37,899 nucleotides of DNA from Desulfovibrio sp. (GTDB lineage: Bacteria; Desulfobacterota; Desulfovibrionia; Desulfovibrionales; Desulfovibrionaceae). Under the pieces are notes generated by a model, which saw only the letters and a list, made by a program, of their open reading frames with translations, was not told the DNA's origin and did no database searches. Of the stretch, positions 17,138-25,921 are shown piece after piece. The position numbers and the translations under genes were made by a program. The stretch is taken from positions 1 through 37,899 of the forward strand of contig JAISTW010000042.1 of assembly GCA_031272405.1 (NCBI GenBank), given 5' to 3'. Every line of letters begins with the position of its first letter. Within the stretch, counting starts at the first letter, position 1.

Positions 17138-17719
17138 CTACCATCCGGGGAGAAAGGCGCGGCAGGCGTAAGGCTGGGGAATGCGCAACACGTCGTTGAG
17201 CGGCAAGGCCAGATATTCGGCCAGGAGGACTTTGTTGAGTCCGGCGTGCCCCACGGCAAGCACAAGGCCATCGCTGCGGCGGGAACGAATATCGGCAAGG
17301 GCTGCCAGAGCCCGGTTGCGGAGCATGAGGAAGCTTTCCCCTTCTTCCGGCTGAAAGGCGGCCATGTTCCGGCCTCGCGCTTCGTACTGGCCGGGGAAGT
17401 CGCGTTCCACCTCAAGCCGCGTTCGTCCTTCCCAGCGGCCCAAGCTTATTTCCCGTAGTCCCGGGAAGCAGAGCAGGGGTGCGTCCGGGATTGCCGCCGC
17501 CAAAATGGCCGCGCTCTCCCGACTGCGGACGAGATCGGAGCAGCAGACGGCTTTTGGCGTTTCCATGTTTCCGCTGTTGATTTCCCATGCCAATTCCTCG
17601 CTCAGAGCGCGCATACGGGCACGCCCAACATCGCTCAGGGAAACGTCGGATGCGCCGATAAATCTGCGCTCCGGGTTGGGGAGCAAATCGCCGTGCCGGA
17701 CAAGCAAAAGGTTCTTCAT
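17138..17719 (-). CDS. Histidine phosphatase family protein at the end of the MOP cluster
   Basis: This 193-residue protein has the phosphohistidine nucleophile RHG at residues 8-10, CSDLVRSRESA (second Arg), the acid in PEEGES and the second His in VGHAG. These are the standard catalytic residues of the phosphoglycerate-mutase-like branch that includes CobC-type alpha-ribazole phosphatases. Its ATG overlaps the stop of the nucleotidyltransferase gene by four bases, so it is translationally coupled to the MOP cluster. A role in nucleotide or cofactor-phosphate hydrolysis is an inference; no cobalamin genes are nearby to support CobC. Confidence 0.88.
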   Translation of the reverse strand: MKNLLLVRHGDLLPNPERRFIGASDVSLSDVGRARMRALSEELAWEINSGNMETPKAVCCSDLVRSRESAAILAAAIPDAPLLCFPGLREISLGRWEGRTRLEVERDFPGQYEARGRNMAAFQPEEGESFLMLRNRALAALADIRSRRSDGLVLAVGHAGLNKVLLAEYLALPLNDVLRIPQPYACRAFLPGW

Positions 17720-18351
17720 GGTAAACGGTGGTTCAGGGCAAGGGCGCGCAGACGCGCGTAATCGTCCGGACTATCCATGTCTTCCGTGACGCCGGGGTCG
17801 CCCGTCTCAAGCGCAAGCACATCCTGCTCGGGCAGGGAGGCCAAAGCTCCGCGCAGGCCGTTTTCTCCGCTGTGAGAGAGAATGGCGCGTTTGAAGACGT
17901 CCGGTACAAGGAGAGGGTGTCCTTCTCGTCCGTCACAGAGGGGGATGACGACAACAGGGGATTCCGCCCGCGCGATCCGGGCTGCGTGCGTCCTGGCCAG
18001 CAGGTGCGCTGTGGCCGTGCGCACCAGGGGGACGTCCACAGGGTGGATGAAAAAGGCGTCGCTGTCCGGCGGCGCGGCGCGCAACCCAACGCAAACGGAG
18101 GAAAACATGCCGTCATCCGGGCGTGGATTGCGCGCGACAGTCAGCGAGAGCGCCTTGGCGGCCGCTTCCACTTGTTCGGCATGACAGCCGCTGATAACAA
18201 GAATATCCTCAAAACCGGCGGCGCGGTACAGACGGGCCAGTCCCTCCAGGGCGGAGCGCTCGACGTCGTCCCTAGGCAGGGGCAGCAGCGCCTTGATCTT
18301 GCCCATGCGGGAGGATTGCCCGGCCGCCAATATAATTGGGCAGAATTTCAT
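17716..18351 (-). CDS. MobA/MocA-like nucleotidyltransferase (DVU_1551-type)
   Basis: This 211-residue NTP transferase starts PIILAAGQSSRMGKIKALLPL, the nucleotide-binding signature of the MobA/MocA/IspD group, and has RNPRPDDGMFSSVCVGL and IHPVDVPLV (metal-binding Asp) as in MocA. MocA attaches CMP to molybdopterin to give MCD, and the D. gigas aldehyde oxidoreductase carries MCD; I infer that this protein supplies the MOP cofactor. It overlaps genes on both sides by four bases (ATGA type). I recall an NCBI family named after DVU_1551 for this protein. CTP versus GTP preference cannot be read with certainty from sequence. Confidence 0.87.
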   Translation of the reverse strand: MKFCPIILAAGQSSRMGKIKALLPLPRDDVERSALEGLARLYRAAGFEDILVISGCHAEQVEAAAKALSLTVARNPRPDDGMFSSVCVGLRAAPPDSDAFFIHPVDVPLVRTATAHLLARTHAARIARAESPVVVIPLCDGREGHPLLVPDVFKRAILSHSGENGLRGALASLPEQDVLALETGDPGVTEDMDSPDDYARLRALALNHRLP

Positions 18352-19424
18352 GCCCGCCCCCCCTTGGGCAGGCGTGCCAGGCGCGGGCCATCGGCGTCAC
18401 GGATCAGTCTGCCGATGATGGGGCCGAGACGGCGCAGAGGGCTGCCGCAAGGACAGGGACCGGGCAAAAAGCGCGCAGCGTCCCCCGTTCGGTAGCGCAG
18501 CAGAGGCATGGCCTCATGATGCAGAGTGGTGATGACCACTTCCCCGCCGCGACCCGGCGGCACGGATTTATCGCCATCCGGGTCTACAATTTCCACCAAA
18601 GTATCCAGTTCGCGCAGATGATAGCCGCTGTGGGCGACGCATTCGACTCCCAGACCGAAACCGCTTTCCGTCAGGCCGTAGTGGTCCAGAAGCTCGCAAT
18701 GCCAGCTCCGGCGCAATGCGCGGGCCAGATCACGATCAAGATTGTCCGCGCTGGAGAGCACTCCGCGCAGCGGCGTCGGCGCTTGAGGCAAATGGGCCAG
18801 CAGGGCGCGCAACTGTTCCGGCGTGGCCACAAGGCAATGAAAGCCGCCCGTCTCCACCCATTCGGCCGTGGCGGACGCATTGCCGCGTATAGCCGGCGGT
18901 GGATCCCGCACGACGATATTCAGGACGGCCAGCGCCTGCCGGAGTTGATCCGTCACGCCATCCGGGCGTTCCCCGCCGGGCAGCAGCACCGCGAGACGCC
19001 CGCCTGGCGGGACAAGCCCGCTCAGGCCGACGCGGAAAAAGTCCCGCGTGGCCGCAAGGTCGTTTTCCGTAAAGGCCAAATGTTTCGGAGGGCCGCTGGT
19101 GCCGGATGTGTTCAGGCTGACCAGACGTTGTACGCGACTGTGGGACACGCAGAGAAATTTTCGCCAGTCCCGGAGATGGGCCGGTTCGGTAAAAGGCAGT
19201 TTTTGTAAATCTTCGGGACAGGTTATGTGCAGATCGCGGCCGGACAGATGGCCTGCGTAAAAGGAACTCCGTTGCGAAACGTAGTCAAGCAGGCGTTGCA
19301 GGGCCTCTGTTTGCGCTTGTCGCACGCGGGCGGGCAGCGGCTTGTCGTCCGGCGGGAGACGCCCGGCAAGCCAGGCGTCCAGGGGGGATACGGGAATGGA
19401 ATCAGCCTGACGGCGGTCGCTCAT
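18348..19424 (-). CDS. AMP-dependent ligase, phenylacetate-CoA-ligase-like (DVU_1553-type)
   Basis: This 358-residue member of the adenylate-forming superfamily is shorter than typical PaaK (about 430). The ATP loop is LNTSGTSGPPKHLAF, the adenine/substrate motif is DHYGLTESGFG, and RYRTGDAARFLPGPCPCGSPL is the hinge-proximal motif with the Cys cluster seen in PaaK relatives. The C-terminal lid is very short, ending soon after RLGPIIGRL, so the half that completes thioester formation may be missing or supplied otherwise. The start overlaps the C_GCAxxG_C_C gene by four bases. Substrate unknown; an aldehyde-derived acid or a cofactor precursor are both possible. Confidence 0.85.
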   Translation of the reverse strand: MSDRRQADSIPVSPLDAWLAGRLPPDDKPLPARVRQAQTEALQRLLDYVSQRSSFYAGHLSGRDLHITCPEDLQKLPFTEPAHLRDWRKFLCVSHSRVQRLVSLNTSGTSGPPKHLAFTENDLAATRDFFRVGLSGLVPPGGRLAVLLPGGERPDGVTDQLRQALAVLNIVVRDPPPAIRGNASATAEWVETGGFHCLVATPEQLRALLAHLPQAPTPLRGVLSSADNLDRDLARALRRSWHCELLDHYGLTESGFGLGVECVAHSGYHLRELDTLVEIVDPDGDKSVPPGRGGEVVITTLHHEAMPLLRYRTGDAARFLPGPCPCGSPLRRLGPIIGRLIRDADGPRLARLPKGGRA

Positions 19425-19879
19425 CGTGCCGTGTCCGGGTTCAGCTCATAATCCTGTGCAAGTTCAAGCAGCTTGTCCCAGCATTCGGCCAACAGCACGG
19501 CGCAGGCCGCTGAATCGGGTTTGCCGCCGCCTGTTGCAGCTCCCAGGCCGGCGGCTATGGCCTCGCAGTTTGTCCCGCCATAAACGACAACGCGTTCATA
19601 AAACCAGCTCGCGTAATCGTTGAGCAAGGGCGTGAACATGGGGTGGGGCGTTTCGTGCGGAGCGCCCTTGCCGGCGAGCAAAGCCAGGGCGCAGGCCCCG
19701 CCGGTGAGCAGACCGCAGGGGCCGTCAGATTGGCCTATTCCGTGGCACAAGCCCTGCATGGCCCGCGTGAGGGCGGGATTCTCCGCTCCGCTTTGCTCCA
19801 GCATGAGCAAAAGCAACAGTTGGCTGCAACAATAGCCTTGCCGCGCCAGCGGCGCGATTTCCATCATCAACGGGTGCAT
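19421..19879 (-). CDS. C_GCAxxG_C_C family redox-type protein (DVU_1555-type)
   Basis: From ATG 19879 this is 152 residues. Cysteines are spaced as in the C_GCAxxG_C_C family: GYCCSQ near residue 17, then a Gly-rich part with DGPCGLLTGGACALALL, a later TNCEAI and two more Cys near AACAVLLAECW. Family members are thought to bind metal or redox centres, but no function is established. The frame is open to 19903, but AAGGAG lies before 19879, which begins MHPLMMEIAP. It overlaps the methyltransferase end by 13 bases and the ligase start by four. Confidence 0.83.
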   Translation of the reverse strand: MHPLMMEIAPLARQGYCCSQLLLLLMLEQSGAENPALTRAMQGLCHGIGQSDGPCGLLTGGACALALLAGKGAPHETPHPMFTPLLNDYASWFYERVVVYGGTNCEAIAAGLGAATGGGKPDSAACAVLLAECWDKLLELAQDYELNPDTAR

Positions 19880-20538
19880 GGCATCTCCTTTTGGGCTATC
19901 CACAGCCCATAGCCGCGATGTGAACGACGCGCGTCCCCGGACAGGCCGAAAAAAGCCGTCAGATCCGCTTCCCCATACCAGGCGAGTTTTGCCGCCAGTT
20001 CCGCGAGGGCCTGACTGTGATCTTCAAAGACATGAAGGAAAAAACCGGCCTCAGCCAACAGATGGCTCCATTCCGCAAGACGCCGTTCACCGGTGGGGCA
20101 GAAGCCGTCATCCTCGTTGCGTGCGTATACGTCCGTGAGCAAAAGCGCACCGCCGGGCCGCACGATGCGCGCGCACTCCCCAAGCGCCCGCGACGGTTCG
20201 GCAAGCAGGGAGAGTACGCATTCACACAGCACGGCGTCCATCACGGCATCGGCCAGAGGCGTTCGTTCCGCTTCGGCTCGGATGCCCACGCGTGCGGAAT
20301 ACGCTTCAGCACGGAGGCGTCCCGGCTCAAGATCAAGTCCCAAAGCCCGATAACCCTGTTTTTCAAGCAGGTCAAGAGTAGCTCCGTCGCCACAACCCAT
20401 ATCCAGTGCGCGCGCTCCCCGGCTCAGTCCGCAGTATCGTCGGCACAATTCCAGGCCGCGCAGGGTCAGGACTAGCCCGCCGGGGCGCAGTGCCGGGCCG
20501 GAGGCCATCCTGAAGTCTTCCCGCCGCCAGGGGGTCAT
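19867..20538 (-). CDS. SAM-dependent methyltransferase (DVU_1556-type)
   Basis: This 223-residue class I methyltransferase carries motif I ALDMGCGDGATLDLL at about residues 44-58, the acidic end of strand 2 (GLDLEP), the motif II/III region DAVMDAVLCECVLSLL, and RPGGALLLTDVY. It resembles UbiE/arsenite methyltransferase-like proteins in fold. An unusual feature is the Cys-rich strand 4 (LCECVL). Substrate not known. Its start overlaps the stop of the two-CxxC protein by four bases, and it overlaps the next gene by 13 bases, so it is embedded in the MOP transcript. Confidence 0.86.
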   Translation of the reverse strand: MTPWRREDFRMASGPALRPGGLVLTLRGLELCRRYCGLSRGARALDMGCGDGATLDLLEKQGYRALGLDLEPGRLRAEAYSARVGIRAEAERTPLADAVMDAVLCECVLSLLAEPSRALGECARIVRPGGALLLTDVYARNEDDGFCPTGERRLAEWSHLLAEAGFFLHVFEDHSQALAELAAKLAWYGEADLTAFFGLSGDARRSHRGYGLWIAQKEMPCTR

Positions 20539-20750
20539 TTGTCTTCCAGCAGGGCTTCCACTTCCAGCATTTTGCCTTCAGCCAAGGATTTCGGGGTCAT
20601 GGTCAACCCGCATTGAGGGCAGGAAGGCAGCGAGACGTCAAAGGCGCTGTTCAGATAAAAAATCTGCATCTTGATTTGTTCCAGCGGCCGACGGCAGACG
20701 CCGCATACCCATTGACCGCTGTCCGGCGGATAGTCGGGGGCCATGCTCAC
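20535..20750 (-). CDS. Small two-CxxC protein (DVU_1557-type redox / zinc-ribbon protein)
   Basis: This 71-residue protein has two CxxC knuckles, WVCGVCRRP (around residue 16) and SCPQCGLTM (around residue 44), the arrangement of a zinc ribbon or rubredoxin-like iron site. It lacks other rubredoxin residues such as the Pro-Asp-Cys pattern, so metal identity is open. It could be an electron carrier or a scaffold. The GTG at 20750 makes a GTGA overlap with the upstream stop; an ATG at 20744 is an alternative. I recall an NCBI family named after DVU_1557 that calls it a redox protein. Confidence 0.8.
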   Translation of the reverse strand: MSMAPDYPPDSGQWVCGVCRRPLEQIKMQIFYLNSAFDVSLPSCPQCGLTMTPKSLAEGKMLEVEALLEDK

Positions 20751-23104
20751 GGCATGTTCTCCCGAGGCGTTTGCCCGGTCTCATGCCTGCCGCCCGGCGT
20801 CGTGCCGGCGTCGCCCGCGCCCGGCACGATCATGCGGTGCATCCAGGCGTCATGCACCATTACTGTTTCCCCGTCACGCGAATATTCCACCCAAAAGGTG
20901 ACATGGCGCGGCCGCGACGAAGCGAGGCGGCGTCCGTTCTGCAGATTTTCAAAATAGCGTCCGCCGCGTTCCGCTTGGGCCACGACGCTTTCCACATCTT
21001 CAAGCAGAATGTGTCTTTCTTCCAGACGAGTTAAGGTTTGCGGCGGCACTGTCAGGCGTTCGGCCGGCCGCTCCAGTGTTTGCCGGCCCAGGTATTCGCG
21101 CAGGACGCGACGGCGCAAGGCCGCGCGTCCGGCTCGCCGGGTGGAGAAGCTGGGACCGCGCGCTGCGGCGGCCTGCGTGTCGGACATTGACGGACGGGGG
21201 AAGAGCAGATCCAGCAGATGAAGACAGGCCTTGTCCTGGTTCGCGAGTCTGTCTCGGCACATGATGCAGGAGGCCAGAGCCGTGTGCGGCAGATCCGCCG
21301 CGCGGGCAGCGCTCATTTCAGCGGCGACGTCCGGAGCGGCGCAGAAGACGAGCCCGCCGTAGCCGCAGCAGGGTGTGGTTTCACCGGTCAGGCGTGGTTC
21401 CTCAGGCGTCGCGCCGCAGGCGCGAACCAGTGCACGCACGGATTTCAGCCAGGCGGCGTCAAATCTTGCCGCGCACGGATCATGAATGGAAAGGGCGAAC
21501 GCGTCATAGTGCCTGCGCCCAGGCGGCAGGGAAAGCGTCGTCAGGATTTCCCAAGCGGAAACAAGTCCGGCTTCCGGCAACGCGGAACGCAGGGCCTTGA
21601 GGCACGAAGCGCAGGCCGCGATGAGCGTGGGCCGGCCGAAATTCTCCCATTGCCGCAGCAATTCGGCCGCATGTCGGTCAAAATCCGCCCGGCGTCCGGC
21701 CCACTGGGCGGGAATGCCGCAACACGACAGCGTGAGGGCGACGCCGCCGGAGAGATTGCTCCGCAAATGCTCATATAATTCCAGAGTCTGTTCCCCGCGC
21801 GAGGCGGTCAGCTGGCAACCGGGGAAAAAGAGCCAGGACGGTTTCCCGCCTTTATCCAGACCGATATCGTTGAGGACAAGGGCGCATTCTGGGCCACAGG
21901 CGCTTTCCATGTCTTCCAGGGCGAATTCATGGGCCGAGGGCGGCATGTAGTTGCGCTCCACCATGTCCTCGCGGGCAGAGCGGCACAAATCGGCCATGGA
22001 AAAACGTTCCGGACAGAGCCGTTCGCACTGGCCGCAAAGAGCGCAACCGTTGATAAGTGTATTGGCCGTGTGAAAACCCTGCACAATGGAGGCGTTGTTA
22101 TATGCCTGGCGAGCATAGGTACGTGGGTATCCCTTGTGTTTTTGCAGAAAGACGCATTCCTTGACGCAGATCAGGCATTGACACTGTATGCAGCGCCCAG
22201 CCTCCCTTGCCGCCTCGTCGGGCGTATAGCCTTCAGCCTCCGCCTCAAGACGCGGCACGGGACTGACGCCTTCCAGGGGAACATGTAAAACTCCCGGTTT
22301 TTTATCGCGTTCCGCCGTCAGGGAGACTTTGCCCACAATGCGCTCCAGGGTCTGGGCCGCGCGGCGGCCTTCCCCCGCCTGCCTTGAAGCTTCCGGAATG
22401 ACGCGTCCCGCCGCGTTCAGGCTTGGCCAACCCGCGCAGCAAACGGTATCGTGCCACAGCAATGTGGCCGCGTCAACATCATCCGGAGGAGGGGCTGGTT
22501 CGGACGCGGCATCGGCGTCCAGCAGCAGCGCGTCGAATGTTTGTACGCAACGGGAGATCAGCGGCGCGTCCAGTCTTGCTTCGGCAAAGGCCACCTCCAG
22601 CGCGACAAGGGCTTCCATATCCGCGCGGAGCGCGCCGCTGTCCGCAAGCACCGGGAAGCGGGAGCACAACAGGCTTGCCGGTTCACCGTTGTGGAAGAGG
22701 GTGATCGAATACCCCTTGCGGGCAAGGTCGGCTGCGGCGACAAGGCCGGCAAGCCCTGCTCCCATAACGGCCAGAGAAAATTTTTTGCGCGGCTGGGGCG
22801 GTATGCGCGTGGGAGAAGTCGCGGCCAAGCAGGCCTGTTCGAGTTTGTTGACGGCAACGGAACCGCCGAGCCCTTTGCGTGGGCAGACGCCTTCACAGGG
22901 ATGGTCGCAAACGGCAGCCATGATGCCCGGCAGAGGCAGGGCGCGGTCAAGGATTCTGCGAGCCGGGACAAGGCGTCCTTCGGTCATGGCGGCAAGGAAA
23001 GCGCGCACATCCAGTTGGAAGGGGCAGACGCCCTGACAGCCCGGTGGGCTCTCCTGGGTGCAGCGCGCTTCAATTTCATGCAGGCGGGCTTGATCGAACG
23101 TCAT
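20747..23104 (-). CDS. Dicluster / CCG-domain redox protein with contracted FAD domain
   Basis: From ATG 23104 this is 785 residues. Order of domains: an N-terminal GltD-like Fe-S segment (C15, C23, C27 and the HPCEGVCP motif); a short flavin-type Rossmann stretch with VMGAGLAGLVAA (about 115); two 4Fe-4S motifs (C305/308/313/317 and C354/357/360/364); two CCG modules (PGC430-CC461, DPC544-CC579), each with a following CxxC, as in HdrB/GlpC-type proteins; and a C-terminal region unique to this family. It probably moves electrons between the aldehyde oxidoreductase system and a quinone, NAD(P)H or thiol partner (inference). The frame extends upstream only through an mRNA hairpin, so ATG 23104, with GGAAG before it, is preferred. 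Confidence 0.85.
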   Translation of the reverse strand: MTFDQARLHEIEARCTQESPPGCQGVCPFQLDVRAFLAAMTEGRLVPARRILDRALPLPGIMAAVCDHPCEGVCPRKGLGGSVAVNKLEQACLAATSPTRIPPQPRKKFSLAVMGAGLAGLVAAADLARKGYSITLFHNGEPASLLCSRFPVLADSGALRADMEALVALEVAFAEARLDAPLISRCVQTFDALLLDADAASEPAPPPDDVDAATLLWHDTVCCAGWPSLNAAGRVIPEASRQAGEGRRAAQTLERIVGKVSLTAERDKKPGVLHVPLEGVSPVPRLEAEAEGYTPDEAAREAGRCIQCQCLICVKECVFLQKHKGYPRTYARQAYNNASIVQGFHTANTLINGCALCGQCERLCPERFSMADLCRSAREDMVERNYMPPSAHEFALEDMESACGPECALVLNDIGLDKGGKPSWLFFPGCQLTASRGEQTLELYEHLRSNLSGGVALTLSCCGIPAQWAGRRADFDRHAAELLRQWENFGRPTLIAACASCLKALRSALPEAGLVSAWEILTTLSLPPGRRHYDAFALSIHDPCAARFDAAWLKSVRALVRACGATPEEPRLTGETTPCCGYGGLVFCAAPDVAAEMSAARAADLPHTALASCIMCRDRLANQDKACLHLLDLLFPRPSMSDTQAAAARGPSFSTRRAGRAALRRRVLREYLGRQTLERPAERLTVPPQTLTRLEERHILLEDVESVVAQAERGGRYFENLQNGRRLASSRPRHVTFWVEYSRDGETVMVHDAWMHRMIVPGAGDAGTTPGGRHETGQTPRENMP

Positions 23105-23130
23105 GGACTTCCACGCAGTTTGGGCGCGCA

Positions 23131-23168
23131 CGGGGTATTGTGCGCGTGACCTCACGCACAATACCCCG
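23131..23168 (-). other. Stable intercistronic hairpin between mop and the dicluster gene
   Basis: A 14-bp perfect stem (23131-23144 with 23155-23168) closes a 10-base loop in the 87-base gap after the mop stop. There is no T-run after it on either strand, so it is not a classical terminator. It is placed to protect the mop 3' end or to lower expression of the seven downstream genes relative to mop. Confidence 0.7.
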
Positions 23169-23191
23169 GATATGTCAGTCTGTCTACCTCG

Positions 23192-25921
23192 TCATGGCTG
23201 CTTGGGCATGGCTTTGAGCACCTTGTCCGGATAGGCGGGCAGGTGCGTGATGCGCGCGCCGCAGGCGTCGCGGATGGCGTTGATGATGGCCGGGTGCGGA
23301 GCCGTGAGCGGCATTTCGCCAATGCCGGAAGCGCCGAAGGGGCCGTCCTTGCGTGGCGTTTCCACATAGATGATTTCCATGCCGTCCGGAATCATCTTGA
23401 TGCTGGGGATGCCCGCTCCCGCAATGGTGCTGTGCTTCTTCAGATCTTCATAATCCTCGGAGAGCGCCAGACCGACGCCCTGCGCCATGCCGCCGTAAAT
23501 CTGGCCGTCAGTGACCAGTTTGTTGTTGACCTTGCCTATATCCGTCACACAGGTGAGTTTTTCCACCTGGGTTTTGCCGGTGGCTTTTTCCACAGCGACT
23601 TCGGCCATGAAAATGCCGTACATGTAACAGCAGAAGGGGCTGCCCTGGCCTTTTTCGTCGCAGCTGGTCGCCGGGGCCGTCCATTTGCCTTCCTGGCGCG
23701 GGGCGCGTCCGGCCGCCTTCAGACCGGCGTAATCGTAAAAACCACCGCCGGGCTTGCGCATGGCTTCAATAAGGGCTTCGCAAGCCACGCGAATGGCGTT
23801 GCCCGTCACGACCTGAGAGCGCGAACCGCCGGCCGGGCCGGAGTTGGGGGCCAGGCTGGTGTCGTTCATGACCAGACGGATTTTGTCGGGAGCGATGCCC
23901 AAGGGACGCAACGCTTCGTGGGCGGTGCCCAACGCTCCGGCATCCGCTCCTTGGCCGTGGTCTTCCCAGCAGGAGCCGACGGAAACGGAGCCGTCTTCAT
24001 TGAGTTCGGCCCAGGCTTCCGAAGAGTCCGGACCGTCCAGACCGGCGCCGTACACGCCGAGAGCGATGCCCACGCCGCGTTTGATTTCGGCCGTGGATGC
24101 GGCTTTGGCTTTTTCTTTGGCCGCCTTGTACAGCGGGCGCAGCTTGTCGAACATTTCCGGCAGACTGTACACTTCCGGATCCTGGCCTGTGGGCGTGGTG
24201 TCACCTTTGCGGTAACAGTTGAGCGCCCGCAATTCCAAGGGGTCCATGTTCAGTTTTTCGGCCAGGTCATCCATGAGTACTTCGGACGGAAATTCACTTT
24301 CCGGCGCTCCATAGCCCCGGAAGGCCGCGCCCCAGCAGTGGTTGGTGCAGACTGTCCGACCTTTGCCGCGAATATTGGGAATGCCGTAGCCGGCGCCGAT
24401 ATACTGCGCGCCGCGCAGAGTCAGCAGGTCGCCGAATTCTGAATAGGGGCCGTGGTCAACGGACCAGTCCGTTTCCATGGCCAGCAGTTTGCCGTTCCTG
24501 TCGGCGGCGTAGCGCACCGTCGTCCAGAATGGGGAGCGTTTGCCGGTGTAGTTTTGTTGCTGTTCATAATTGTAGCGCAGATGGCAGGGTCGGCCGGTGG
24601 CCAGCGCGGCCACGCCAAGCAGAGCCTCCATGGTCGGGCTGAATTTGTAGCCGAAGGTGCCGCCTGCGGTATTCTGCACCATGACCATATCCTTGCCGAA
24701 ATCCAGGCCAAGGCCGGGCGCGATCATCATGCCGTGCAGATGCAGACCGATGGATTTGGAATGAATCACGAGCTTGCCGGCTTCGTTCAGATAGGCGTAG
24801 CCCACGTCCGGCTCAATGGGCAGATGAGGTTGGCGCTGGGTATAAAAATCGTCTTCCACGATGACGTTGTTCGGGTCTTTGAAGAACGGCAGGGTGTCCT
24901 GACCCTTCTCAAGATTCTGGTCATAGTAGACGTTGGGCGTGCCGGGGTGGATTTCAATGGCGTCGGCGGCCATGGCGTCAGGCGCGTTCATATATTCCGG
25001 CAACAGTTCCAGATCGAATTTGACCTTGTCCGCCGCCGCGCGGGCATGGCATTCCGAATCGGCGCAGACGATGGCCAGGGCGTCGCCGTACTGGAAGACC
25101 TTGGAGTCGTTGAGTATGGGTCTGTCCCAACCGTCGCCTTTGTTGGTCGGGAAGGTGATCAGGCCGGTGATGCGGTTTTTGCCCTTGACGTCCTTGTGAG
25201 TCAACACTTTATGGACGCCGGGCATTTTTTCGGCTTCCGAGGTGTCAATGCCCTTGATGAGCGCGTGAGAAACCTTGGCTTGGGCTATGGCCAGATGCAG
25301 CGTGTCCTTGGGCAGGCGGTAGGCGGCGTCGGCTCCGAATTCCGCGGTTCCCGTCACTTTGGCGAGAGCGCTCGGGCGGGGCAGGGATGATCCCCAGATG
25401 CGGCCGTCGGCCGGAAGCCTGAACTCGATGTCCGAGTCTTTTTTGTCGCCGCGCATGACGGCGGCTGCGTCCATAACGGCGTCCACCAGAGGCTGATAGC
25501 CGGTGCAACGGCAGATGTTGTGGTGTTTTTCAAACCAGTCGCGCACGTCGTGACGACTTGGTTTGGGATTTTCGTCCAAAAGGGCCTTGGCCGAAACGAT
25601 AAAGCCAGGCGTGCAGAAGCCGCATTGGGCTGCGCCGTGGAATATCCAAGCCTTCTGGAGGGGATGCAGGCGGTCCGCTGTGCCTATGCCTTCCACTGTG
25701 GTAATGGACGCGTTGTTCGGAACGCGGCGCATTTTTATGATGCATGAGCGGGTCGTCTTGCCGTCAAGTATGACGGTGCACGCGCCGCATTGCCCCTGTC
25801 CGCAGCCTACCTTGACGCTGGTAAGCTGCAACTGGCCACGCAAGACATCGGCCAGGGAATCGTCCGGATTTATCAGCAACCTCCGGGGGATTCCGTTTAC
25901 GACAAGCGTTTTTGTTTCCAT
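23192..25921 (-). CDS. mop: Molybdenum aldehyde oxidoreductase (MOP type, xanthine oxidase family)
   Basis: This 909-residue single-chain enzyme oxidises aldehydes to carboxylic acids. The N-terminal plant-type [2Fe-2S] domain has C40, C45, C48, C60; the second helical [2Fe-2S] domain has C100, C103, C137, C139. All match the numbering I recall from D. gigas MOP (907 residues), and long stretches such as KGKNRITGLITFPTNKGDG look the same. The molybdenum domain includes GGTFGYKFSP, AFRGYGAPES and the catalytic Glu in PFGASGIGEMPLT. There is no FAD domain, as in MOP, so electrons must leave through the Fe-S clusters. AGGAGA precedes ATG 25921. It heads the eight-gene cluster; cofactor MCD is expected by homology. 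Confidence 0.97.
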   Translation of the reverse strand: METKTLVVNGIPRRLLINPDDSLADVLRGQLQLTSVKVGCGQGQCGACTVILDGKTTRSCIIKMRRVPNNASITTVEGIGTADRLHPLQKAWIFHGAAQCGFCTPGFIVSAKALLDENPKPSRHDVRDWFEKHHNICRCTGYQPLVDAVMDAAAVMRGDKKDSDIEFRLPADGRIWGSSLPRPSALAKVTGTAEFGADAAYRLPKDTLHLAIAQAKVSHALIKGIDTSEAEKMPGVHKVLTHKDVKGKNRITGLITFPTNKGDGWDRPILNDSKVFQYGDALAIVCADSECHARAAADKVKFDLELLPEYMNAPDAMAADAIEIHPGTPNVYYDQNLEKGQDTLPFFKDPNNVIVEDDFYTQRQPHLPIEPDVGYAYLNEAGKLVIHSKSIGLHLHGMMIAPGLGLDFGKDMVMVQNTAGGTFGYKFSPTMEALLGVAALATGRPCHLRYNYEQQQNYTGKRSPFWTTVRYAADRNGKLLAMETDWSVDHGPYSEFGDLLTLRGAQYIGAGYGIPNIRGKGRTVCTNHCWGAAFRGYGAPESEFPSEVLMDDLAEKLNMDPLELRALNCYRKGDTTPTGQDPEVYSLPEMFDKLRPLYKAAKEKAKAASTAEIKRGVGIALGVYGAGLDGPDSSEAWAELNEDGSVSVGSCWEDHGQGADAGALGTAHEALRPLGIAPDKIRLVMNDTSLAPNSGPAGGSRSQVVTGNAIRVACEALIEAMRKPGGGFYDYAGLKAAGRAPRQEGKWTAPATSCDEKGQGSPFCCYMYGIFMAEVAVEKATGKTQVEKLTCVTDIGKVNNKLVTDGQIYGGMAQGVGLALSEDYEDLKKHSTIAGAGIPSIKMIPDGMEIIYVETPRKDGPFGASGIGEMPLTAPHPAIINAIRDACGARITHLPAYPDKVLKAMPKQP

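Follow-up and report, generated by a model that had tools for sequence, protein, structure and literature searches.

Molybdopterin-dependent aldehyde oxidoreductases (MOP) are among the best studied molybdenum enzymes. According to PMC3877041, MOP structures reach 1.28 Å, the D. gigas enzyme contains pyranopterin cytidine dinucleotide with an equatorial oxo ligand, the sulfido ligand being absent and not needed, and inactive enzyme is reactivated with dithionite plus sulfide. Genes of the DVU_1551-1559 type have been named piecemeal in NCBIfam (NF045645, NF045646 and NF045663-NF045669), mostly without functions, as a preliminary description of the DNA studied here had already noted. This DNA is a stretch of 37,899 nt from Desulfovibrio sp. 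(assembly GCA_031272405.1, contig JAISTW010000042.1), hereafter the window, and it carries mop together with seven accessory genes. The linkage of MOP to such partners is strong, and if these formed a small pathway, this would help to explain the purpose of MOP.

Two clusters with known MOP structures provide the closest comparison. The genome of D. gigas (1SIJ/1VLB), recognized by a 100% MOP match over 309 residues to the crystal sequence, has one cluster that combines MOP with DIC (a pyridine-nucleotide/4Fe-4S/CCG protein), RED (a small two-CxxC protein), MT (a methyltransferase), CGA (a C_GCAxxG_C_C protein), TrsS (a radical S-adenosylmethionine (SAM) (seleno)protein), LIG (a PaaK-like AMP-forming ligase), XdhC, and HP (a histidine phosphatase). 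In D. desulfuricans ATCC 27774 (1DGJ; 100% MOP match over 312 residues), the cluster extends from MOP to LIG, TrsS included, and also contains HP and NTP-HD, a MocA-like nucleotidyltransferase (NTP) with an HD domain. The window encodes the same full-length enzyme with the same partner set (1770 bits against 1DGJ and 1448 bits against 1SIJ). Its MOP consists, according to Pfam, of two [2Fe-2S] domains and the Mo domains, with the FAD domain absent; the Cys motifs as well as GASGIGE and FRGYG are present, and the [2Fe-2S] domains and Mo-site motifs align with those of D. gigas. Unlike both described clusters, however, that of the window contains no TrsS, and it also lacks the XdhC found in D. 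gigas and the HD half of NTP found in ATCC 27774.

The eight-gene cluster was confirmed on the minus strand at 17138-25921 (Table 1). Six of the eight genes (those for MOP, DIC, RED, MT, CGA, and LIG) pass the curated NCBIfam family cut-offs. NTP is half-length, covering just positions 3-198 of the 359 in the NF045665 model, and for this reason remains below its cut-off; no NCBIfam family was above cut-off for HP. The preliminary description had counted overlaps at six of the seven junctions. This holds if RED starts at GTG 20750, in which case the junctions following the mop-DIC gap are overlaps of 4, 4, 13, 4, 4, and 4 bases; with the start at ATG 20744, a 2-base gap separates DIC from RED and five of the seven junctions overlap. 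The accessory genes thus form an overlapping unit, as had been claimed, but mop itself lies outside of it.

Table 1. Positions and family matches of the MOP cluster in the window.
Feature	Position	Strand	Length and match
mop, molybdopterin-dependent aldehyde oxidoreductase (MOP)	23192..25921	-	909 aa; NF045668 1641 bits, cut-off 1100
Gap with stem-loop, mop to DIC	23105..23191	-	87 bases; 16-bp stem
DIC, pyridine-nucleotide/4Fe-4S/CCG protein	20747..23104	-	785 aa; NF045663 835.6 bits, cut-off 530
RED, two-CxxC protein, DVU_1557 family	20535..20744	-	69 aa; NF045645 82.8 bits, cut-off 60
MT, SAM-dependent methyltransferase, DVU_1556 family	19867..20538	-	NF045667 201.2 bits, cut-off 155
CGA, C_GCAxxG_C_C protein, DVU_1555 family	19421..19879	-	NF045669 154.6 bits, cut-off 103
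LIG, PaaK-like AMP-forming ligase without C-terminal lid domain, DVU_1553 family	18348..19424	-	NF045666 370.5 bits, cut-off 300
NTP, MocA-like nucleotidyltransferase, first half only of DVU_1551 family	17716..18351	-	NF045665 200.3 bits, cut-off 315
HP, histidine phosphatase, CobC-like	17138..17719	-	PF00300 134 bits; TIGR03162 114.5 bits, under cut-off 162.9

The strength of the linkage is apparent from 160 sampled genomes of the order Desulfovibrionales, in which MOP was called by its similarity to residues 1-309 of the D. gigas enzyme (E 1e-100) and DIC at E 1e-150. MOP was found in 98 genomes and DIC in 97 (96 over its cut-off); 96 genomes had both and 61 had neither. TrsS was over cut-off in 93 of the 160 genomes, all of which had DIC. 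Altogether, 96 of the 98 MOP genomes contained DIC and 92 contained TrsS, so that the proposal of a dedicated set tied to MOP was borne out. Among the exceptions, G243 (63% complete) has MOP with no DIC or TrsS match at the applied thresholds, and G308 has DIC and TrsS with no MOP match. In a second sample of 168 genomes from the phylum, MOP was over cut-off in 10, DIC in 11, and TrsS in 16; the eleventh DIC genome (G104) has a partial MOP, the DIC contig (L092) ending inside mop. The 16 TrsS genomes comprise all 11 DIC genomes and five further genomes with no MOP and no CCG protein (DIC) over cut-off. XdhC_rel_AOR was over cut-off in 30 genomes of this sample, just three of which were DIC genomes, and is therefore not specific to the MOP system. 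Taken together, the coupling of MOP to the partner set is tight, but the reverse does not hold, as TrsS, MT, LIG, and redox pieces also form operons in MOP-less genomes.

Gene content was also compared among related clusters. A scan for DIC yielded 76 loci, which later fetches extended to 91 clusters. Content was counted in the 70 of these with at least 6.5 kb downstream, for hits of at least 30 bits and with two places that had been fetched twice (L006=L100 and L032=L093) kept. CGA was present in 68, TrsS in 64, LIG in 62, and MT and RED in 60 each, followed by NTP (46), the HD domain (45, in each case fused to the MocA-like gene), HP (43), and XdhC (35). The RED count is too low because RED and DIC share an open reading frame at several loci, and the TrsS count leaves out a 32-bit match in L009 as a chance fragment (65 with it). 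Since XdhC occurs in only 35 clusters, it is no strict requirement of the set. Of the 73 clusters with at least 2.5 kb of sequence in front of DIC, 72 have mop as the immediate upstream neighbor, an adjacency far beyond chance; in the remaining cluster, mop lies at a distance of about 1.2 kb upstream.

Against this background, the window cluster is a reduced version of the gene set. In relatives, TrsS lies between CGA and LIG, and XdhC between LIG and NTP; in the window, the CGA and LIG genes share 4 bases. Two close relatives (L004 and L005) are also without XdhC and the HD half, and TrsS is still in place in them. The absence of XdhC had been noted before, which is correct for the cluster but not beyond it, given the 35 relatives with XdhC and an XdhC-like gene on contig 22 of the same genome (L144:7297-8403; 269.4 bits against a cut-off of 350 for XdhC_rel_AOR). 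In this gene, the Rossmann part precedes the XdhC_CoxI part, the reverse of the domain order in the family model. With respect to TrsS, the window is the seventh cluster without it, besides six of the 70 (L009, L042, L048, L063, L072, and L076). DIC and RED are the sole partners remaining beside MOP in L048 and L076. Whole-genome searches in the genomes of these six clusters revealed a TrsS over cut-off elsewhere in G371, G372, G373, and G377, and no TrsS at 1e-60 in G374 and G380. In L009 (7177-14186), a close relative of the window cluster, the frames of mop, MT, and NTP are broken and TrsS and LIG are absent, reflecting either decay or an assembly error.

The genome of the window itself (a 2.2-Mb assembly, 80.65% complete) contains a single TrsS that exceeds the cut-off (contig 27, L080:8033-9385; 502.5 against 490 bits). 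It stands alone, its neighbors being seemingly unrelated genes (nitrite-reductase-like and others, as read from the sequence without a family scan), and has retained all 26 of the C/H/D/E/K/R columns that are more than 95% conserved. In the tree, it falls into a clade with support 1.0, the other 14 members of which all come from the Synergistia class sample or from G373, and it is distant from the TrsS of the close relatives. The simplest story is a loss of the original TrsS from the window cluster, its function being served in trans by a TrsS acquired from a Synergistia-like source, maybe together with the MOP2-type gene of contig 53. The contig 27 TrsS probably has this role. About one fifth of the genome is missing, which leaves room for another TrsS copy.

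Among enzymes of known structure, TrsS resembles Tes (GDGT-macrocyclic archaeol synthase/tetraether synthase; 7TOL, 7TOM), which joins lipid chains. In an alignment to 7TOL, the TrsS of the relatives and of contig 27 retain the rubredoxin-like, N-terminal cluster, and radical-SAM ligands. However, TrsS is shorter than Tes, carries one additional Cys or TGA, in many cases two, close to the radical-SAM motif, and scores 310-362 against the Tes cut-off of 450. In-frame TGA codons were seen at two different conserved-Cys positions (in L147, L148, and L149, and in L143, L166, and L167), and three TrsS with TGA at the first position are without Cys at the second. TrsS is probably a selenoprotein in some species.

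Six TrsS loci (L083-L088) were found in genomes without MOP over cut-off; in the sixth of these genomes (G039), TrsS is under cut-off and in two frames. These loci contain a short DIC or the DIC C-terminal domain, MT, TrsS, and, except for L083, LIG, in the same order as in the MOP clusters. RED was detected in four of them with our own models, and CGA is present in two and placed differently. No MOP, NTP, XdhC, or HP was found in the stretches read. Examples of TrsS, MT, and LIG from these loci score above their curated cut-offs. In the preliminary description, a wide occurrence of the families without a MOP-type enzyme had been named as grounds against a dedicated system. This was found in part, namely in 5 of the 16 TrsS genomes of the phylum sample and, for TrsS, MT, and LIG together, in 5 of the 6 MOP-less loci, and it is the main reason for not calling the core a MOP maturation kit. 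Moreover, the cluster is split over two loci in G372 (Syntrophorhabdus sp.) and G377 (Syntrophobacterales bacterium), with MOP-DIC-RED at L048 and L076 and MT-TrsS-LIG at L135 and L136. The TrsS core of G377 (L136:3937-11058) lies behind genes for a molybdopterin oxidoreductase and an FmdE-family protein, hinting at ties with other molybdenum enzymes.

The analysis was expanded to 180 genomes of the class Synergistia, to which L063 (titled Synergistaceae) belongs. TrsS was over cut-off in 27 genomes and was found in 33 at 1e-110; 25 of the latter were fetched, resulting in 26 loci (two from G519), in addition to G373 and G379, which had been fetched earlier (L137 and L143). MOP adjoins TrsS in 20 of the 26 loci. 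A contig end lies near the cluster in four of the other six (L146, L155, L167, and L170), and L160 and L161 have no MOP within the stretch read. One arrangement, of the MOP1 type, is MOP-DIC-RED-MT-CGA-TrsS-LIG, while in the other a MOP2-type enzyme (by score) is accompanied by TrsS, DIC, and RED, often also by CGA, MT, and LIG, in differing orders. The fetched loci gave no match to NTP, XdhC, or HP, and a single HD match beside LIG in L170. The core set therefore surrounds two kinds of MOP, with the cofactor genes being optional.

The gap between mop and DIC contains a stem-loop in nearly all related clusters. With the twice-fetched places excluded, a stem with 10 or more base pairs was present in 71 of 77 clusters, compared to 7.5 expected from shuffles, and its structure is kept although the sequence differs. 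The 16-bp stem of the window is not followed by a U-run. Because of this stem-loop, mop and the accessory genes are probably expressed at different mRNA levels.

The LIG of the window shares the AMP-binding core motifs with the PaaK phenylacetate-CoA ligases, all three being retained, and lacks their C-terminal lid domain: its similarity to PaaK extends to residue 339 of 358, leaving 19 residues. The catalytic Lys of PaaK-type ligases is located in this lid. In a survey of 80 LIG rows, the tail behind the core comprised 16-55 residues in 50 rows, mostly from loci titled Desulfovibrio, Mailhella, Bilophila, or Solidesulfovibrio (one of them, L068, is cut by the contig), and at least 93 residues in 30 rows, including D. 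gigas and all five LIG from MOP-less loci. The long-tailed relatives have the lid, and their tails often end near a Lys-Arg pair of a kind that could provide the catalytic lysine of adenylate-forming enzymes. Judged from its motifs, the LIG of the window may adenylate.

We tentatively favor, as the most probable of the explanations considered, that the genes constitute a metabolic module with MOP at its center and not merely a kit for making it. In such a module, MOP would oxidize an aldehyde to the acid, and DIC and RED would accept the electrons, as suggested by the linkage, their Fe-S content, the absence of an FAD domain from MOP, and the DIC-RED fusions; DIC is likely to be the redox partner of MOP. 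TrsS, MT, and LIG, together with CGA, would act on an organic compound, perhaps a hydrophobic aldehyde or acid, that is either the source of the natural MOP aldehyde or made from the acid product. It is a rather doubtful, more specific proposal that Tes-like TrsS, MT, and the PaaK-like LIG form an undescribed anaerobic pathway that makes the true MOP substrate, an aldehyde that is perhaps hydrophobic, and that runs also without MOP. A third, optional layer of NTP(-HD), XdhC, and HP could, judging from their families, supply or insert molybdopterin cytosine dinucleotide (MCD). In the genome of the window, where TrsS, XdhC, and the HD half would have disappeared from the cluster, the TrsS on contig 27 from the other clade would substitute in trans. 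Gene content, conservation, co-occurrence, the core in MOP-less genomes, and the unusual clade of the contig 27 TrsS are direct observations; the reactions, the loss, and the replacement are inferred from them. If the pathway exists, MOP is a pathway enzyme and not a general aldehyde scavenger. The link to TrsS, MT, LIG, DIC, RED, and CGA puts a Tes-like radical enzyme, at times with an in-frame UGA, next to anaerobic aldehyde oxidation and provides a concrete gene list for study, and the MOP-less operons serve as a control to tell maturation from metabolism. A special MOP substrate is favored by the finding (PMC4215793) that ethanol and choline fitness of D. alaskensis is tied to aldehyde:ferredoxin oxidoreductase.

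Several observations weigh against a metabolic module. The MOP clusters L063 and L111 retain DIC, RED, CGA, and LIG without TrsS and MT, so that the layers are not cleanly separable. G239, G241, G295, and G306 have MOP and DIC without TrsS (G295 and G306 are 99% complete), and in G170, which is 100% complete, MOP is accompanied by neither of the two at the applied thresholds for DIC and TrsS. The presence of two or three MOPs with one DIC and one TrsS in G256, G278, and G314 fits a trans-acting maturation equally well, and the stem behind mop suggests an excess of MOP over its partners, as expected for maturation factors. The five full-length TrsS from MOP-less genomes group in a separate clade and are without a Cys present in 84 of 92 other TrsS (all rows outside the no-MOP, split, and Tes lists, some from loci cut before MOP), so the MOP-less core may have diverged. 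CoA ligation, that is, activation of the acid to a CoA ester, by the LIG of the window is doubtful because the lid domain is missing. Furthermore, a table in a 2024 proteomics study of D. vulgaris (PMC10920352) places MOP (DVU_1559) in ethanol metabolism, the plain view in which MOP handles aldehydes in general.

The closest competitor, somewhat unlikely in our estimate, is maturation and repair of MOP by the whole set, with NTP producing MCD, XdhC inserting it, and TrsS, MT, LIG, DIC, RED, and CGA performing a transient step on the cofactor or apoprotein (protection, reduction, or activation) that leaves no lasting mark. It would account for the fact that DIC and TrsS hardly occur without MOP in the order sample, for genomes with up to three MOPs and single copies of both, and for the stem-loop that sets mop apart; in addition, the NCBIfam name of the cluster XdhC is aldehyde oxidoreductase maturation factor, and the reactivation of D. 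gigas MOP (PMC3877041) is in line with it. The occurrence of the TrsS-MT-LIG core in MOP-less genomes, the complete MOP genome G170, and the structure of D. gigas MOP, drawn in the same source with an ordinary cofactor and no sulfido ligand, argue against it. As D. gigas has TrsS and MT next to mop and yet ordinary MCD with an oxo ligand, the set is unlikely to serve for altering the molybdenum site; TrsS and MT leave no change reported there, and their role could be transient. The preliminary description had offered a system that makes MCD, inserts or modifies the molybdenum site, and carries electrons. The MocA-like gene remains a candidate for making MCD, but insertion or modification as the purpose finds no backing in D. 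gigas; the other proposal, a pathway in which the ligase processes the acid product, holds up better, apart from the missing lid. It is unlikely that the TrsS core makes a lipid or redox product of its own, with MOP only clearing an aldehyde by-product or being co-regulated and the link thus physiological. The similarity of TrsS to a lipid-joining enzyme, the cores in MOP-less genomes, and the separate loci in G372 and G377 are consistent with this, whereas the same partners in different orders around MOP1- and MOP2-type clusters suggest a closer tie. Very improbable is an electron-transfer island in which every accessory gene passes MOP electrons to cellular acceptors: DIC, RED, and CGA have conserved Cys or Fe-S motifs, and L048 and L076 retain DIC and RED alone, but TrsS, MT, LIG, NTP, and HP would be left unexplained.

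Some further features were observed. The MOP gene on contig 4 of G170 (L145) had no core gene in the 19 kb read. In the genome of the window, contig 53 encodes a second MOP-family enzyme (L081:8052-10859; NF045668 1166 bits, MOP2 clade) next to hydrolase-like, ABC-transporter-like, and MFS-like genes, as read from the sequence without a family scan, and no core or partner gene was found beside it. Contig 42 (L082) has a third enzyme of the xanthine oxidase family, with the Fe-S and Mo subunits encoded separately, along with a MocA-like gene and another one resembling a helper of selenium-dependent hydroxylases; the locus looks like such a system. The window cluster likewise combines a xanthine oxidase-family enzyme with a MocA-like helper, but its MOP was rejected as a selenium-dependent molybdenum hydroxylase (TIGR03311, 407.4 against a cut-off of 830.45 bits). 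DIC comprises a GltD-like N-terminal Fe-S and Rossmann part, a 4Fe-4S dicluster, CCG, and a C-terminal domain (Pfam Fer4_20, Fer4_17, and CCG). In CGA, Cys 18, 55, 105, and 126 are unchanged throughout an alignment of 47 sequences, and the predicted structure, a fold of seven helices modeled with high confidence (pLDDT 94), has no strong match in the PDB.

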